54,575 nt of DNA, from positions 1-54,575 of the forward strand of contig CAJXZZ010000008.1 in the NCBI GenBank assembly GCA_913065105.1, given 5' to 3'. The translations under genes were made by a program, and so were the position numbers. The stretch comes from an uncultured Gammaproteobacteria bacterium (GTDB lineage Bacteria; Pseudomonadota; Gammaproteobacteria; SZUA-229). A model generated the notes under the pieces. The model had not been told where the DNA came from and made no database searches. It worked only from the letters and a program-made list of their open reading frames with translations. This document shows, one piece after another, positions 11,031 through 54,573 of the stretch; positions within the stretch are counted from its first letter, which is position 1; each line of letters starts with the position of its first letter.

Positions 11031-11423
11031 GTGAAATTTAGTATTCAAGTTAATGAAGGGCCATACCAGAAACAGGCATCTGATACTGCGTATCAGTTTG
11101 CCAAAGCTGCTATCGCTGCCGGACATGAAATTTTTCGTATTTTCTTCTATCACGACGGTGTGAATAATGCGACGAAACTTGCGGTTCCACCACAAGATGA
11201 TCGTCATATTCCCAAGCTGTGGTCGGAACTATCAAAAGAACACAACCTGGATTTGGTTGTTTGTATTGCCGCAGCACAACGCCGTGGCATGATGGATGCC
11301 GATGAAGCAAAACGTCAAGGTTTTGAAGATAATAACCTGATTGAAGGTTTCCGCATCTCTGGTCTTGGCCAGTTGATCGAAGCCGGCATCGAATCAGACC
11401 GTCTGGTCGTCTTTGGGGCTTAA
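11031..11423 (+). CDS. dsrE: Sulfur transferase subunit DsrE
   Basis: 130 residues starting at a GTG (GTGAAATTTAGTATT), supported by AAGGT upstream and the close spacing to dsrB. DsrE forms the cytoplasmic DsrE2F2H2 complex that receives sulfane sulfur and passes it to DsrC. Its active cysteine is at residue 78 (LVVCIAAAQRRG), the position known for Allochromatium DsrE. The YHDGVNNA and GLGQLIEAG motifs are typical. The presence of dsrEFH is a marker of the oxidative Dsr pathway. Confidence 0.96.
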   Translation: MKFSIQVNEGPYQKQASDTAYQFAKAAIAAGHEIFRIFFYHDGVNNATKLAVPPQDDRHIPKLWSELSKEHNLDLVVCIAAAQRRGMMDADEAKRQGFEDNNLIEGFRISGLGQLIEAGIESDRLVVFGA

Positions 11424-46600: not shown

Positions 46601-46617
46601 TCCTTTAAAAACCTTTC

Positions 46618-46713
46618 ACCGCAGAGGCGCGGAGACGCAGAGTTTTTTAGTTTTTCGCTCCTGCGGCGCGACAAACATAGGATTTTTTCTCTGCGCCTCC
46701 GCGCCTCTGCGGT
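46618..46713. repeat. Palindromic dispersed repeat, copy 2
   Basis: ACCGCAGAGGCGCGGAGACG (25 nt in all) is the inverted copy, with one mismatch, of 46689-46713. It lies between sat and the convergent apbE and can form a hairpin for either transcript. Confidence 0.75.
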
Positions 46714-46732
46714 AAAATTTTTTTGTAGTTTT

Positions 46733-49467: not shown

Positions 49468-51453
49468 ATGGCCGAATTTGGTAATCCAGATGTTGTCGAA
49501 GAAGAAGTAGACATTCTTCTTATCGGTGGCGGTATGGCTTGTTGTGGTACAGCGTTCGAAATCCCACGTTGGATCGAAGCATCAGGCAAAGACATTTCTG
49601 TTACATTAGTTGATAAAGCTGCAATGGACCGTTCAGGTGCTGTTGCTCAGGGTTTGTCTGCTATTAACACTTACATTGGTCCTGAACAGGATCCAGCTGA
49701 CTACGCTCGTATGGTTTCTAATGACCTTATGGGTATTACTCGTGATGACCTTGCGTACGACTTAGGTCGCCACGTAGATGAGTCTGTTCACCTGTTTGAA
49801 GAATGGGGTCTACCTATTTGGAAAACTGACGAGAACGGCGAGCGTTTTGACGGTTCTAAAGGTATGACATCATTGAAAGATGGTGGCAAACCTGTACGTT
49901 CTGGTAAATGGCAGATCATGATCAATGGTGAGTCTTACAAATGGATTGTTGCTGAAGCTGCTAAGAAAGCTTTAGGTATCGACAATATCCAGGAACGTAT
50001 CTTCATCGTTAAACTGATTAACGACAAAAACGACCCTAGCAAAATTGCTGGTGCCGTTGGTTTCTCTACTCGTGACAACAAGATCGTCGTATACAAAGCT
50101 AAAGCAATACTTCTTGCTGCTGGTGGTTGTGTAAACATCTTCCGTCCACGTTCTGTTGGTGAAGGTACTGGTCGTGCATGGTACCCAGTGTGGAACGCAG
50201 GTTCTACATACTCAATGGCTGCTGAAGCAGGCGCTGAGTTAACATTGATGGAAAATCGTTTCGTACCGACTCGTTTCAAAGACGGTTACGGTCCTGTTGG
50301 CGCATGGTTCTTGTTGTTTAAAGCACAAGCAACTAACGCTTACGGCGAAGCTTACATGCAGAAAAACAAAGAAATGCTGGATGACTACCCTCCATATGGT
50401 CATGCTGCTGTTCCTGCTTCTTGTCTGCGTAACCACTTAATGCTTAAAGAGATGAAAGACGGTAACGGTCCTATCTGGATGGATACTGTAACTGCTCTTG
50501 GCAACCTACGTGAAACATTGTCTCCACGTGAAGTTAAGCATTTAGAAGCTGAAGCATGGGAAGATTTCCTTGACATGTGTGTTGGCCAATGTGGTATCTG
50601 GGTTGGTGAGAACATTGAGCCAGAGAAGAAAAACTCTGAGTTAATGCCTACCGAACCATACCTGTTAGGTTCTCACTCTGGTTGTTGTGGTATCTGGACT
50701 TCTGGTCCTGATGATGTAGGCGCACCGACTACTGAAACAGAGCCTGGCGTTCCTGAGCACCTACCTTCTGGTTGGAACTGGGGCTACCGCGGCATGACTA
50801 CTGTAAACGGTCTGTTTACAGCTGGTGATGGTGTTGGTGCTTCTGGCCACAAATTCTCTTCAGGCTCTCATGCTGAAGGTCGTATGTGTGCGAAGTCTAT
50901 GGTTAAGTACGTTTTAGACAATGCTGATTACAAACCAGAGCTAGATACTTCTGTAGAAGACCTGGTTGCTGAAATCTATCAGCCTGTTAGAACGTTCCTT
51001 GAGTTTAAAGACTACTCAACAGCTATCGACGTTAATCCTAACTACATCACTCCAAAAATGTTGCAGTTCCGTCTGCAAAAAATTATGGACGAGTATGTAG
51101 CTGGTGTTGCAACTTATTACAACACTAACGCCGAGATGATGAAAGTTGCTGGCGAAAAGATCGATTCGTTGAAAGAAGATGCTATGAAAATGCGTGCTAA
51201 AGACCTTCACGAATTACTTCGTGCTTGGGAAAACTATCACCGCATAATCACAGCTGAAGCTCATCTGAAACACATTGAGTTCCGTCAGGAATCACGTTAC
51301 CCAGGTTTCTACTATCGTACAGACAAGAACTTTGTCGACGAAGAAAACTGGCATGTTTTCGTGAATTCAATTTACGACAAGAAAACTCAAAAGTTCACTT
51401 GTTTCAGACGTGCACACGTTGATTTGGTAGACAAGTCTAAGCTATTCAAATAA
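49468..51453 (+). CDS. aprA: APS reductase, alpha (flavin) subunit
   Basis: 661 residues, FAD-binding fumarate reductase/succinate dehydrogenase-like: DILLIGGGMACCGTAFEIPR, DRSGAVAQGLSAINTYIG, ENRFVPTRFKDGYGPVGAW, GHKFSSGSHAEGRMCAKSM. AprA catalyses the AMP-dependent oxidation of sulfite; the APS then goes to Sat. AGAGGATATAAAG precedes the ATG. No aprM or qmo genes follow in the window, so the quinone partner of AprBA must be elsewhere. Confidence 0.98.
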   Translation: MAEFGNPDVVEEEVDILLIGGGMACCGTAFEIPRWIEASGKDISVTLVDKAAMDRSGAVAQGLSAINTYIGPEQDPADYARMVSNDLMGITRDDLAYDLGRHVDESVHLFEEWGLPIWKTDENGERFDGSKGMTSLKDGGKPVRSGKWQIMINGESYKWIVAEAAKKALGIDNIQERIFIVKLINDKNDPSKIAGAVGFSTRDNKIVVYKAKAILLAAGGCVNIFRPRSVGEGTGRAWYPVWNAGSTYSMAAEAGAELTLMENRFVPTRFKDGYGPVGAWFLLFKAQATNAYGEAYMQKNKEMLDDYPPYGHAAVPASCLRNHLMLKEMKDGNGPIWMDTVTALGNLRETLSPREVKHLEAEAWEDFLDMCVGQCGIWVGENIEPEKKNSELMPTEPYLLGSHSGCCGIWTSGPDDVGAPTTETEPGVPEHLPSGWNWGYRGMTTVNGLFTAGDGVGASGHKFSSGSHAEGRMCAKSMVKYVLDNADYKPELDTSVEDLVAEIYQPVRTFLEFKDYSTAIDVNPNYITPKMLQFRLQKIMDEYVAGVATYYNTNAEMMKVAGEKIDSLKEDAMKMRAKDLHELLRAWENYHRIITAEAHLKHIEFRQESRYPGFYYRTDKNFVDEENWHVFVNSIYDKKTQKFTCFRRAHVDLVDKSKLFK

Positions 51454-51483
51454 GTCCCGACTTATTAGATAGTTGAGTTACAG

Positions 51484-51518
51484 AAGTCCGGGCATCATCT
51501 GATGCCCGGATTTTTTAA
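51484..51518 (+). terminator. Rho-independent terminator after aprA
   Basis: Stem TCCGGGCATCA/TGATGCCCGGA (51487-51497, 51500-51510), 2-nt gap in the palindrome, T-run after. Confidence 0.93.
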
Positions 51519-51646
51519 TTTTAAAGGCTTTAAATTTTGAAGGCTTTAAATATAAGAGTCCTGCGTCAAACATTAAAACGTCTGATTTTTATATTTAATA
51601 CTTAGTACCAAATACTGGTACCACGCAACAACACACGAGTAACATT

Positions 51647-52582
51647 ATGAGCGATATCGACGATTTTGAAGATACTAGAGATTTTAGTTTTGAACTACCA
51701 CACTCAAGTCCAGTTTCACCTACCCGACTTGAACTGGATGACCAGTTAAAATTCCGTTGTCATCGTGGCGTCTCTTGCTGGAACCAGTGCTGCTCACGAG
51801 CGGATGTCACCCTCGCACCTTATGACATCATCCGTTTAAAAAATTCGACAGGCATGGACAGCACAGAGTTTCTTAAAGCCCATACCGTTCCATTCGAACT
51901 TGATATGCACGGCGTTCCTGGTCTTAAGCTGCGCACTGATGACAGTGGCGCATGTTTATTTATGAAAGAAGAAGGCTGCTCCGTTTATGCAGATCGTCCA
52001 ACAGCATGCCGCTATTACCCTTCTGGCCTGCTCTCAATGAAATCGATCAGCGAATCAACAGATGAGCGTCATTTCTTACTGATCAAAGAAGAGCACTGTA
52101 AGGGCCACGATGAAGACCAGCTGCAGACCATTGGCGAATACCGCAAAGCACAGGGCGTAGAAGAATATGACGACCTTAATCTTGAGTGGTATCAGATCAT
52201 CTTGAAGAAAAAGTCTACCGGGCCAAGCATCGGTAAACCTTCTGACATGAGCTTACAGATGTTCTTCATGGCAAGTTACGATATGGATCGTTTCCGTCGT
52301 TTTGTAATGAGCGATGCATTCATCAAGATGTATGACATAAATGACGATGAATACGCGGAATTTGAGACCGATGATATTGCATTAATGAAATTCGGTTTCA
52401 AATTAATGAAACAGGTATTCTTTGGTGAATTGACAGTTAAAGAACGTGAAGGTGCCTGGGAAGAACGCGTTAAAGAACGCAAAGAAATTCTTGAATTTCG
52501 CAAGCAGGCTGAAATTGCCGAGCACGACAGGAAGCAGGACGCCGCCCGAAAAGCATCATTAGATTCTGGCAAAGACGAATAA
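51647..52582 (+). CDS. YkgJ-type cysteine-cluster protein
   Basis: 311 residues. The YkgJ zinc/iron-cluster core is FRCHRGVSCWNQCCSRADVTL, ACLFMKEEGCSVYADRPTACRYYP and a further Cys in KEEHCKGHD. The C-terminal half is helical and charged with no known domain (ERKEILEFRKQAEIAEHDRK). Function of the family is unclear; some members bind Fe or Zn. The gene lies right after aprBA with its own leader, which repeats the AGTACCAA half-site found before dsrA. Confidence 0.85.
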   Translation: MSDIDDFEDTRDFSFELPHSSPVSPTRLELDDQLKFRCHRGVSCWNQCCSRADVTLAPYDIIRLKNSTGMDSTEFLKAHTVPFELDMHGVPGLKLRTDDSGACLFMKEEGCSVYADRPTACRYYPSGLLSMKSISESTDERHFLLIKEEHCKGHDEDQLQTIGEYRKAQGVEEYDDLNLEWYQIILKKKSTGPSIGKPSDMSLQMFFMASYDMDRFRRFVMSDAFIKMYDINDDEYAEFETDDIALMKFGFKLMKQVFFGELTVKEREGAWEERVKERKEILEFRKQAEIAEHDRKQDAARKASLDSGKDE

Positions 52583-52593
52583 AGAAAGTCGTC

Positions 52594-52659
52594 AGTTTGC
52601 AGTTGTCAGTAGGCAGTTAAAAGCTTTTTAACTTCAAGCCTGACTGACAACTGCCAACT
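52594..52659. repeat. Palindromic repeat, 'agttggcagttgtcagt' family, copy 1
   Basis: AGTTTGCAGTTGTCAGT at the left and ACTGACAACTGCCAACT at the right are inverted copies with two differences over 17 nt. A second copy is at 53201-53292. Fills the gap between the YkgJ-type and phosphoesterase genes. Confidence 0.7.
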
Positions 52660-52686
52660 TCTCCCTAATATAAATACCACATCTTA

Positions 52687-53202
52687 ATGAACAACCTCGT
52701 AACCGTAGGAATCCTCTCCGACTCGCATGGATTCTTAGATCCAAGGATAGCTGAAACGGTCAATCGGTGTGACTATATCGTGCATGCTGGCGACATCTTC
52801 AACGCACATGTATTAGAACAGCTGGAGCCAAAAATAGAACTGGTTGTAGTTGCTGGCAACAATGATTATCCTGGCTTCTGGAAAGAGGAAGAAACGGCTA
52901 TTGTTAAAGCCCTGCCGCAAAAAAATAAACTGGAATTACCCGGTGGAGCAATCTTTGTCGAACATGGCCACCGCCTGGGTAACCGTCCTGAACACGAGCA
53001 ACTTCGTAAGGATCACGCAGAAGCACGTTTAATCGTTTATGGCCACACCCATTATCGCAGCATAGATCAGAAAGCAGAACCCTGGGTGGTTAACCCTGGC
53101 GCTTCTGGAAAGGTTCGCACCCACGGGGGGCCTTCATGTTTAATCCTTCATGCCAGCGAGGATGAATGGACCATCGAGACGGTTTTGTTTGAAGACACAT
53201 AA
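52687..53202 (+). CDS. YfcE/MJ0936-family metallophosphoesterase
   Basis: 171 residues. Metal ligands: Asp12 and His14 (LSDSHGF), Asp37 (HAGDIF), Asn60 (GNNDY), VEHGH and YGHTHYR near the C-terminus. Small phosphodiesterase of the YfcE group; natural substrate unknown. Weak ribosome site. Closed by the palindromic repeat at 53201. Confidence 0.92.
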   Translation: MNNLVTVGILSDSHGFLDPRIAETVNRCDYIVHAGDIFNAHVLEQLEPKIELVVVAGNNDYPGFWKEEETAIVKALPQKNKLELPGGAIFVEHGHRLGNRPEHEQLRKDHAEARLIVYGHTHYRSIDQKAEPWVVNPGASGKVRTHGGPSCLILHASEDEWTIETVLFEDT

Positions 53203-53292
53203 AAAAGTTGGCAACCGACAGTTAGCAGTTAAAAGTTTTTAGTTTCCAGTTTTTAACTGCCTACTGCAAACTGATGACTGCCAACTTTTTTT
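53201..53292. repeat. Palindromic repeat, same family, copy 2, between convergent genes
   Basis: AAAAAAGTTGGCA and TGCCAACTTTTTTT at the two ends, with GCAGTTAAAAG/TTTTTAACTGC inside. Having an A-run before and a T-run after, it probably acts as bidirectional terminator for the phosphoesterase and the anti-sigma gene. Confidence 0.75.
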
Positions 53293-54025
53293 AAGCTTTG
53301 ATATAAACCCAGCCTTTCTTCAAACGATCCGGGATCAAATCTCTAGCAGCTTTATCACTTGACACACCCGGCATCAACACAATTTCGACGCCTTCTTTTT
53401 TGAGCGCTTTGGCAATTGAACGATCACAGGCATATATATCAACTTCATCGTTATCTAGCAGTTGCTGTATACGCGCAATGTAGGGTGACATACCCGGTCT
53501 TAAAATATCTATGCCCTTTTTATTAGTAACAATATTCAGTTCCATCGGTGTATTAGATTTACGGTAAGTCGCCAACAATTGATCTGCTTCATTTAATGCA
53601 GCGTTAACAACCTTCAGATCACTAGAGTCGATATGCAAGACGATCCTCCTTGTTCCATGCTCGACCTTCACATGATTAGCCACATACTGAAAAGTATTTT
53701 CTGCAGAGATCGCCTGTGTTGCATTGGGGCTGTATTCATAGGTAGACCAACCCAATAATACGCCCACAACCAGAGTCACTGATGCTGCAATGGCTTTAGC
53801 AAAAATCGAATTGATTTTTTGTTTCTCACGAGCCTCATAAGGAGAACCCGGTACTTCACTATAAGCATAACCAACCAACTCGCGTACGGCTTTTAACTGA
53901 CATACTCGCTCACGTAAATCTTTATCCTCAAGTAGAGCTTCATGTATCTCATTCATCTCATCGGAATCAAGCTGATTATCGATAAATAAATTTAATTTAT
54001 CTTCCGTAATATCATTTATATTCAT
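53291..54025 (-). CDS. Membrane anti-sigma factor fused to a DsrE-like domain
   Basis: 244 residues in three parts. 1-60: acidic anti-sigma-like N-terminus (INDITEDKLNLFIDNQLDSDEMNEIHEALLEDKDL), lacking the HxxxCxxC zinc motif; one Cys42. 75-95: a single membrane helix (AIAASVTLVVGVLLGWSTY). 126-244: DsrE/F-like domain (RIVLHIDSSDLKVVNAALNEAD, ELNIVTNKKGIDILR, DIYACDRSIAKALKKEGVEI, ending RLKKGWVYIKA) with Cys200 at a site where DsrE-like proteins carry a cysteine. Overlaps the sigma gene by one base (TAATG), with AGGAGG before its ATG, so they are translationally coupled. Orientation suggests a periplasmic DsrE-like sensor. Confidence 0.8.
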   Translation of the reverse strand: MNINDITEDKLNLFIDNQLDSDEMNEIHEALLEDKDLRERVCQLKAVRELVGYAYSEVPGSPYEAREKQKINSIFAKAIAASVTLVVGVLLGWSTYEYSPNATQAISAENTFQYVANHVKVEHGTRRIVLHIDSSDLKVVNAALNEADQLLATYRKSNTPMELNIVTNKKGIDILRPGMSPYIARIQQLLDNDEVDIYACDRSIAKALKKEGVEIVLMPGVSSDKAARDLIPDRLKKGWVYIKA

Positions 54026-54573
54026 TATTTGATCCTCCTTAGTTTAAATTCAGATAATTCATCCGAACCAAATTCAAGTAACTGTTGCTTTAAGTTTTTA
54101 CGTGCTCTAAACAGGCGACTCATCACCGTTCCGATTGGCACATCAGTAATTTCAGCGATCTGTGCATAACTAAAACCAGCAAAATCAGCCAGTGTTACCA
54201 CTTCACGCAATGGCAAGGGCAACTGCTCTACAGACGCACGAACCCGTTTAACTATCTGTGACTGCTGATAGTTATCAGTATGGCCGACCTGTTCTTCATC
54301 ATGCATCTCGACAAATTCAACATTACGGCCCTTAATGCGTAAGTAATCATGCCAGCAATTGAATAAAATTCGGTATAACCAACTATCCATCGTCTCCACA
54401 TCACGCAGCCTTGATGCATTTTTTATGGCCTTGTAAATGGTCTCCTGAACCAGATCGTCAGCTAACGCAGGATCATGACACCATGAATAGGCAATGCGAT
54501 AAAGTTTGTTACGTCGTGCAGCAAATTCAGATTTCAATGAAAAAGCAGCCACCAAATTTTTAACAACTTTCAT
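54025..54573 (-). CDS. ECF-type RNA polymerase sigma factor
   Basis: 182 residues. Region 2 (LYRIAYSWCHDPALADDLVQETIYKAIKNASRLRD, SWLYRILFNCWHDYLR) and region 4 (LPLPLREVVTLADFAGFSYAQIAEITDVPIGTVMSRLFRARKNL) of the sigma-70 ECF group. It is followed by the anti-sigma-DsrE fusion. Its ATG lies two bases from the window edge, so the true start may be further out and the promoter is not visible. Confidence 0.92.
   Translation of the reverse strand: MKVVKNLVAAFSLKSEFAARRNKLYRIAYSWCHDPALADDLVQETIYKAIKNASRLRDVETMDSWLYRILFNCWHDYLRIKGRNVEFVEMHDEEQVGHTDNYQQSQIVKRVRASVEQLPLPLREVVTLADFAGFSYAQIAEITDVPIGTVMSRLFRARKNLKQQLLEFGSDELSEFKLRRIK

Follow-up and report, generated by a model that had tools for sequence, protein, structure and literature searches.

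According to the available portions of the cited articles, an ECF/anti-sigma pair of Arcobacter butzleri (ECF sigma-2) raises the expression of soxXYZAB and soxCD (PMC3445524), and RpoE1/RpoE4 of Sinorhizobium meliloti (ECF26) are active on thiosulfate or taurine and control sorT together with their own operons (PMC3511301). In Hyphomicrobium, sulfane-sulfur control is exerted by the repressors SoxR and sHdrR (PMC10451225, PMC12423496, PMC11582611), and in Acidithiobacillus caldus the sigma-54 two-component system TspS/TspR is tied to sox transcription (cited in PMC12194929). The available text of PMC11582611 describes the sensing of external sulfur by the regulators of sulfur oxidizers as poorly understood, and the sulfane-sulfur regulators named in it are DNA-binding repressors.

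The locus described here lies at the right end of a window of 54,575 nucleotides (the whole stretch of DNA that was analysed) from an uncultured gammaproteobacterium. The window is an entire contig, C8 of the organism's own genome G000, and it ends 2 bases beyond the start codon of a sigma factor gene. An earlier note, made from the letters of this DNA, had proposed that this gene is coupled to an anti-sigma factor with a DsrE-like sensor domain. In our judgement the pair is probably a one-step periplasmic sulfane-sulfur switch that controls periplasmic sulfur oxidation.

Architecture of the sigma/anti-sigma pair

The architecture of the pair, the fold of its sensor domain, the invariant lone cysteine, the charge bias around the membrane helix and the conservation of the gene pair were computed here. 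The features are as follows.

54025–54573, minus strand: ECF sigma factor gene, 182 aa, with 2 bases left past the start codon at the contig end
53291–54025, minus strand: gene of a membrane anti-sigma factor with a DsrE-like C-terminal domain, 244 aa
53858–54025, minus strand: helical zinc-less putative anti-sigma domain (MucA/RseA/RsiW-like), residues 1–56, from AlphaFold of residues 1–74
53735–53803, minus strand: single membrane helix, residues about 75–97, with conserved A80, A81, GxxxG (G88, G92) and W93
53294–53653, minus strand: DsrE-like domain, residues 125–244, predicted periplasmic, from AlphaFold and fold comparison
53426–53428, minus strand: codon of Cys200, the sole Cys of the periplasmic part, from the anti-sigma alignment

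The sigma ORF (54025–54573) and the anti-sigma ORF (53291–54025) have one base in common, position 54025, in agreement with the overlap given in the earlier note. By its regions 2 and 4 the 182-aa product is classified as an ECF (group IV) sigma factor: the Pfam matches to sigma70 regions 2 and 4 (PF04542, 49 bits; PF08281, 59.4 bits) are both over cut-off, and TIGR02937 (sigma70-ECF) scores 81.3 against a cut-off of 42.9 bits. A 182-aa sigma factor with its start at the same place is found in some relatives (L212, L216, L218 and L245), so that the gene at the contig end is probably complete. The sigma gene adjoins a co-directed anti-sigma gene in 39 of the 40 loci of relatives, and the remaining locus (L043) breaks off where its contig stops; G000 carries one anti-sigma of this kind.

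The isolated N-terminal residues 1–74 are modelled by AlphaFold with a pLDDT of 83.4. Foldseek against the PDB gave 9 matches at E <= 10, each weak (E 0.6–9.8) and drawn from chains of five entries, and all 9 of them are anti-sigma domains (MucA, RsiW, RslA, ChrR); the VIA Z values of the fold comparison (4.4–6.9) are likewise individually weak. The N-terminus would hold this sigma factor. The zf-HC2 family is matched weakly in 16 of 62 anti-sigma members, and the HxxxCxxC motif of the zinc anti-sigma (ZAS) proteins, already reported as lacking, occurs in 0 of 105 aligned anti-sigma rows.

In the AlphaFold model of the anti-sigma the helix spans residues 62–97. Its two glycines are conserved in 102/105 (G92) and 89/105 (G88) rows, and this GxxxG suggests that the oligomer state could be the output. 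The K/R charge of the window's anti-sigma is 3.1 ahead of the helix and 0.8 behind it, and positive charge is higher before the helix than after it in 91 of 100 rows. This bias fits the positive-inside rule and therefore points to an N-in topology with the DsrE-like domain in the periplasm, which backs the outer-side location proposed earlier; throughout, the words "secreted" and "periplasmic" are based on visual inspection of N-termini, on the charge bias and on what is known of the families. Residues 99–107, which link the helix to the C-terminal domain, are the only stretch with pLDDT under 50.

The Pfam DsrE match (PF02635) of the window's anti-sigma reaches 17.5 bits, under the 22.7 cut-off, and among 62 members a match at E <= 0.01 is obtained in 15. 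The assignment is insecure from the sequence alone because of this score, and it is settled by the fold. The AlphaFold model, built with 61 homologues, has a mean pLDDT of 86.3, with residues 121–244 at 88–97 by blocks of ten. When residues 125–244 were compared with the PDB, the ten best entries (1L1S, 2PD2, 8UJA, 1JX7, 2FB6, 2D1P, 2QS7, 2HY5, 3MC3 and 3PNX) gave Z values from 17.1 to 11.3 with an rmsd of 1.4–2.8 Å, and the next row fell to Z 6.2. These ten include DsrE, TusBCD and YchN, as well as three entries titled DsrE or DsrE/DsrF-like. The closest is MTH1491 (1L1S; Z 17.1, rmsd 1.5 Å over 110 residues), followed among the named proteins by ST0148 (2PD2, Z 16.2), YchN (1JX7, 13.5), TusBCD (2D1P_A, 12.0) and DsrE (2HY5_A, 11.7); a profile search of PDB sequences also leads from the anti-sigma domain to 1L1S (E 1.5e-19). 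As modelled, the C-terminal domain has a DsrE-like fold, as had been proposed, and a chance match or another fold is ruled out by Z values of 17.1–11.3 to DsrE-like entries. No sequence relationship to DsrE proper of DsrEFH, the sulfurtransferase of the rDsr pathway, was detected: the profile meets the window's own DsrE-like ORF (11031–11423) at E 0.2 with a probability of 0.3%.

The anti-sigma alignment comprises 105 rows (83 distinct sequences), one of which, the truncated L172, does not cover Cys200; alignment A3 leaves out three truncated anti-sigmas (L108, L155 and L172). Position 200 is Cys in all 104 covering rows, so the single C-terminal cysteine singled out in the earlier note is conserved. 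Each of these 104 rows has exactly one Cys past residue 98, and L172 has none. In the AlphaFold model Cys200 is placed after strand 195–199 and before helix 201–211. It aligns with a Cys of both 1L1S and 2PD2, and the GW-Y C-terminal motif is also present in both. We take the position of Cys200 to be the place of Cys78 in DsrE, and Cys200 would carry sulfur. Cys78 of DsrE is named catalytic in the available text of PMC13047784.

The divergent operon and its promoter

An anti-sigma was matched in 49 of 96 relatives, a few of the matches running across the DsrE part only. Opposite the sigma gene, most of the 40 loci encode DsrE1, a DsrE-like protein whose start resembles a signal peptide, and then a Porin_O_P-type porin; the porin cluster is found in 31/40 loci. 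Further members, present mainly in near relatives, are a TlpA-like thioredoxin (15/40), another DsrE-like protein (DsrE2) and a DUF302 protein (14/40). DsrE1, 'LQISDPNPFKQTLVLNVA' (L027:10353–10793; loci L107–L186), has the porin as its partner; the representative from L027 is without a Pfam or NCBIfam match, and the representative DsrE2 is without an NCBIfam match. On the other side of the pair, beyond the anti-sigma, the window carries three convergent genes (49468–53202), an aprA-like gene, one for a CxxCxxCC protein and one for a small metallophosphoesterase; the metallophosphoesterase is found in 21/40 and the CxxCxxCC protein in 13/40 relatives' loci.

Cys200 aligns with Cys102 of DsrE1, which is invariant in 8/8 DsrE1 rows (alignment E 6.3e-17). 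The DsrE-like part of the anti-sigma might be a docking or oligomerisation module that gauges the free periplasmic DsrE-like carriers in a feedback, Cys200 being structural or of use only in the complex. Such a role would suit the DsrE-like proteins with signal-peptide-like starts encoded divergently beside the pair, the homology of the anti-sigma domain to them (E 6.3e-17), the multimers known in the DsrE family by the titles of 2HY5 and 2D1P, and the GxxxG conserved in the membrane helix. However, a lone Cys invariant in 104/104 rows exceeds what docking needs, and we regard this alternative as unlikely. Under the preferred reading, the sulfur switch, the secreted-type DsrE proteins, which share the compartment of the sensor and the promoter of the pair, would be natural sulfur donors or competitors.

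When named genomes were searched with the DsrE1 alignment, 150 relatives were obtained, of which the best 80 were taken; this set and the set of 40 loci overlap in organisms. Most records among the best 80 of 150 name only Gammaproteobacteria. The groups that are named include Thiolapillus, Thiohalobacter, Sedimenticola, Thiogranum and Ectothiorhodospiraceae, and further Halothiobacillus, Thiotrichales, Chromatiales and Lysobacterales; a single record carries the title Phycisphaerales. The named genera are presumably sulfur-oxidizing. Among these best 80 of 150, sigma and anti-sigma genes are divergent from DsrE1 in 53 of the 62 loci with at least 2.6 kb of flank, or in 54/62 when L186 is counted, where an over-long ORF masked the gene order. 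Searched more widely, 398 genomes of the phylum gave 20 matches at E 1e-20; 3 of them span both anti-sigma domains, all in the same class and one being the window's own, and the others cover mainly the DsrE part. In 369 genomes of the class, 101 matches were obtained at E 1e-8, stand-alone DsrE matches included, and by hand count both ends of the anti-sigma are covered in at least 66 of the 369. The fusion thus recurs in Gammaproteobacteria, divergent from DsrE1 and porin, where the earlier note had called for a search across genomes and a table of neighbours.

In 74 of the 75 loci that could be tested among the best 80 of 150, the porin is a neighbour of DsrE1. This, together with the weakly MucA/RseA-like N-terminus, would also be expected of an RseA-like envelope-stress pair that responds to mis-assembled porin or redox stress and has recruited the DsrE domain for stability. 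That explanation appears very improbable to us, as it gives the invariant cysteine no role and as in the own genome the promoter motif described below also lies ahead of sox, yeeE and dsrE genes. A sulfur-sensing function remains the preferred reading.

ECF-type promoters have an AA-containing -35 element and a CGTC-type -10 element. Among the best 80 of 150 loci, 65 gave an intergenic region with the sigma gene and a divergent gene, and the shared motif GGAATAA-N13-NC(G/A)TCT is found oriented both ways in 65/65 of these regions, a count that is partly by construction because the matrix was seeded by hand from enriched word pairs and then refined on the same regions. In the word-pair count for the best 80 of 150, AATA-N16-CGTC occurs in 28 of 64 regions in the operon direction and its CATC-type relatives in 26 in the sigma direction, against 7 for the best shuffled pair. 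With the refined matrix the lowest site in these loci (best 80 of 150) scores 11.0, all sites thus being above 10, and shuffled regions, in which two-base blocks were permuted, exceed 10 in 12 of 390 cases. The sigma gene is hence preceded by an ECF-type promoter in 65/65 regions of relatives (best 80 of 150); the window's own promoter is beyond the contig end.

Outside the divergent regions, 13 sites of 18 or more were found in 772 kb of the best 80 of 150 loci. Nine of these sites precede DsrE1 or DsrE2, and a tenth (L146) belongs to DsrE1 by its distance; 2 are ahead of a gene next to the system whose product is periplasmic binding-protein-like, and 1 has no called ORF. DsrE1 genes without a sigma gene in the examined stretch have a site of 13 or more in 8/15 cases (best 80 of 150). 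The gene of the periplasmic binding-protein-like 'KDAGHGHDYRTFNVNG', near the pair in L122 and L123, is preceded by a site of 23.6 (3934 in both, minus strand), and in L119 a gene for a similar protein is directly upstream of DsrE1.

DsrE1 was not found in the own assembly, where two distant paralogues (29–31% identity) are present. The porin orthologue begins at base 1 of contig C15, and behind it come genes for DUF302, hydrolase and DUF3015-like proteins, in an order that recurs in part in relatives. Because the porin and the neighbour genes of relatives begin C15, the DsrE genes would sit in the gap between C8 and C15, and the own divergent operon probably falls in this assembly gap.

Candidate targets of the sigma factor

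Besides the divergent operon, the computation placed the ECF-type promoter, which is shared in both directions there, also before sox, yeeE and dsrE genes. In G000 the strict pattern has 5 matches and the reversed control 7, which rules out a genome-wide excess in this genome, so that the case for a regulon rests on the positions of the matches. Seven relatives have 10, 9, 10, 13, 12, 5 and 8 matches against controls of 4, 4, 6, 7, 8, 6 and 3. Many matches sit within genes or ahead of nothing recognisable, and only recurrent ones were taken further. Of the five in G000, one is inside an ORF, one is without an ORF, one precedes a secreted-hydrolase-like gene and two precede sulfur genes. The last two are on contig C70, one before dsrE3, a third DsrE-like gene, which is followed by a SoxH-like metallo-hydrolase gene, the other before the gene of a YeeE-family transporter. 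In at least one of the seven relatives the pattern is found before dsrE3, yeeE, soxX, soxB, DsrE1, DsrE2, TlpA and the sigma gene.

Regulon scoring used a matrix trained on the divergent regions only. In G000 it gives 14.8 before soxX (contig C7, followed by soxYZA), 16.2 before soxB (contig C1), 13.4 before yeeE and 18.3 before dsrE3. A score of 13 or more, a threshold chosen after the scores were seen, is reached in relatives by soxX in 9/30, soxB in 14/29, yeeE in 10/29 and dsrE3 in 11/13 cases, dsrE3 having been sought only in the stretches fetched for yeeE plus four others. Control genes reach it in 4/214 cases, and three of these (L052, L053 and L055) may be real targets beside the system. 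Four DsrE3 duplicates, one partial SoxB row and one partial YeeE row were dropped from these tables. As to the identity of the genes, SoxX, SoxY, SoxZ and SoxB of relatives (L208, L246) have NCBIfam equivalog matches above cut-off; soxX and soxB of G000 share 84% and 87% identity with the genes of those relatives. The own YeeE matches Pfam Sulf_transp and is TsuA-like below cut-off, and the own metallo-hydrolase meets SoxH-type models below cut-off.

Sites are commoner where the anti-sigma is present (31/69) than where none was found (2/19; one-sided Fisher 0.005), in a comparison that leaves out dsrE3, in which genomes without the anti-sigma are mostly, not all, less complete, and whose P values are only indicative because the genomes are related. 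One genome that is 82% complete (G005) has soxX and soxB sites and no detected anti-sigma. Rows under 65% identity reach 13 or more in 1/11 (soxX), 1/6 (soxB) and 0/11 (yeeE) cases, and relatives with the system and without sites include G012 (soxX, soxB) and G007 (soxX, yeeE). The sox link is therefore not universal.

A paralogous sigma/anti-sigma-DsrE pair, here called system B, is encoded at L065:5758–7095, at L067:3317–4630 and in L056. Its identity to the main pair is 23–24% in L065 and L067 and 30% in L056, and opposite it is encoded a protein of about 540–565 aa that looks secreted. In L055 (4864–6909) the place of the DsrE/porin operon opposite the sigma gene is taken by a gene of the 5'-nucleotidase family that is related to SoxB and has a strong site (21.6). 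The motif at soxX, soxB and yeeE might be read by another ECF sigma factor, for example that of system B, whose promoter in G012 is of the same type (L213; L065), with the present pair controlling only itself and the DsrE/porin operon. The soxB and yeeE sites of G017 and G002, which carry a merely distant anti-sigma, fit this possibility, as does the fact that sox and yeeE sites are mostly missing in more distant genera; yet the own genome has one such anti-sigma and all four sites. We give this division of labour a low probability and retain a single sigma factor for both groups of sites. The earlier note had looked for a promoter motif shared by the sigma gene and sulfur genes, and it is found before the sigma genes of relatives and before sox, yeeE and dsrE3; a link of the pair to sulfur genes is supported.

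The sulfur loci near the pair, which the note had named as possible targets, did not hold up. Over the whole window 8 sites scored above 9.5, compared with 5, 6 and 10 for three shuffles, and none of the 8 is upstream of the window's dsr, apr or sat genes; with no excess and no upstream site, these genes are rejected as targets. The best site (15.3 at 849, plus strand) lies within a minus-strand transporter gene. The likely targets are elsewhere, namely the divergent DsrE/porin operon and, on other contigs, the sox, yeeE and dsrE genes. Two repeats were also seen in the window. An intergenic repeat, AGTTGGCA...GTTAGCAGTT, has direct and inverted copies around the metallophosphoesterase gene (52587–52625 and 53201–53291), with 3 matches at <= 3 mismatches against 0.01 expected for a pattern drawn from these same copies. 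A 36-nt inverted repeat (46607–46724), 89% complementary with arms 46 nt apart, lies 3' of an ATP sulfurylase-like gene.

Proposed sulfur switch and known systems

In the proposed switch, the cytoplasmic anti-sigma helices would hold the ECF sigma factor, and the periplasmic DsrE-like domain would read on Cys200 the state of sulfane sulfur, in the form of a persulfide or of bound thiosulfate. Thiosulfate may serve as a ligand, since a DsrE homologue that handles it in Metallosphaera cuprina is mentioned in the available text of PMC13047784. Cys200 might be loaded directly, or it might receive sulfur from soluble DsrE-like proteins, apparently secreted, whose synthesis the system would itself induce. 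The loaded domain would signal via the membrane helix, and the sigma factor would be released by a conformational change or by regulated proteolysis. Once free, it would transcribe its own gene pair and the divergent operon with the DsrE-like protein(s) and the porin, in near relatives also the thioredoxin-like and DUF302 genes of this operon, and in the own genome and some close relatives soxXYZA, soxB, the YeeE-family transporter gene and the DsrE/metallo-hydrolase pair. We infer four of these elements, namely the binding of the sigma factor by the N-terminus, the sulfur on Cys200, which way the response goes and how the sigma factor is released; the sox/yeeE/dsrE regulon is proposed from footprinting, and it could not be traced in all relatives.

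It is possible, though we advance it only tentatively, that the pair stands for an undescribed and widespread class of anti-sigma factors in which a DsrE-like domain, loaded by self-induced carriers, directly senses extracytoplasmic sulfane sulfur for the control of sox genes. If this is true, periplasmic sulfur flux is gauged in many Gammaproteobacteria by the same chemistry that carries the sulfur. The pair is a candidate for the sensing of sulfur outside the cell in sulfur-oxidizing bacteria. With it come a sensor in the membrane, a single candidate residue, the sequence of a promoter and a set of listed target genes, all of which can be tested together. It also draws attention to the association of a DsrE-like protein, apparently secreted, with a porin, a pairing that is unstudied.

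In the open-access PMC literature no description of a DsrE-fused anti-sigma was found, and the papers there that hold both DsrE and anti-sigma use the words in unrelated contexts. RseA and MucA have one membrane helix, as the present anti-sigma does. Their anti-sigma domain (AlgU-MucA, 6IN7 and 8Z6G), zinc-less and helical, is weakly resembled by the N-terminus of the present protein, which differs by its C-terminal domain of DsrE fold. MTH1491 (1L1S), ST0148 (2PD2) and, more distantly, DsrE, TusBCD and YchN have the fold of residues 125–244 in common with it but are stand-alone soluble proteins, whereas the present anti-sigma is a membrane fusion.

Among the regulators, ECF sigma-2 of Arcobacter butzleri is alike in being an ECF/anti-sigma pair that controls sox genes; the available text describes no sensor domain, promoter motif or DsrE for it, and its regulon takes in nap and others, of which, according to the authors, several genes must be indirect targets (PMC3445524). 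RpoE1/RpoE4 resemble the present pair in the ECF control of a sulfur-oxidation gene and in autoregulation, but the signal proposed for them is sulfite, the targets are other ones, and no DsrE-fused anti-sigma is described in the available text (PMC3511301). The ArsR-type SoxR and sHdrR share the sulfane-sulfur control of sox genes; being DNA-binding repressors, they are cytoplasmic, whereas the candidate sensor of the present pair faces the periplasm (PMC10451225, PMC12423496 and PMC11582611, in their available portions). TspS/TspR is likewise a signalling system linked to sox transcription in a sulfur oxidizer, but it combines a two-component system with sigma-54, as far as it is cited in the available text of PMC12194929, and the present pair is of the ECF type. 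Elsewhere, ECF sigma factors are already known to control sox or sulfite genes, and it is the DsrE-type anti-sigma sensor and its regulon that look new.
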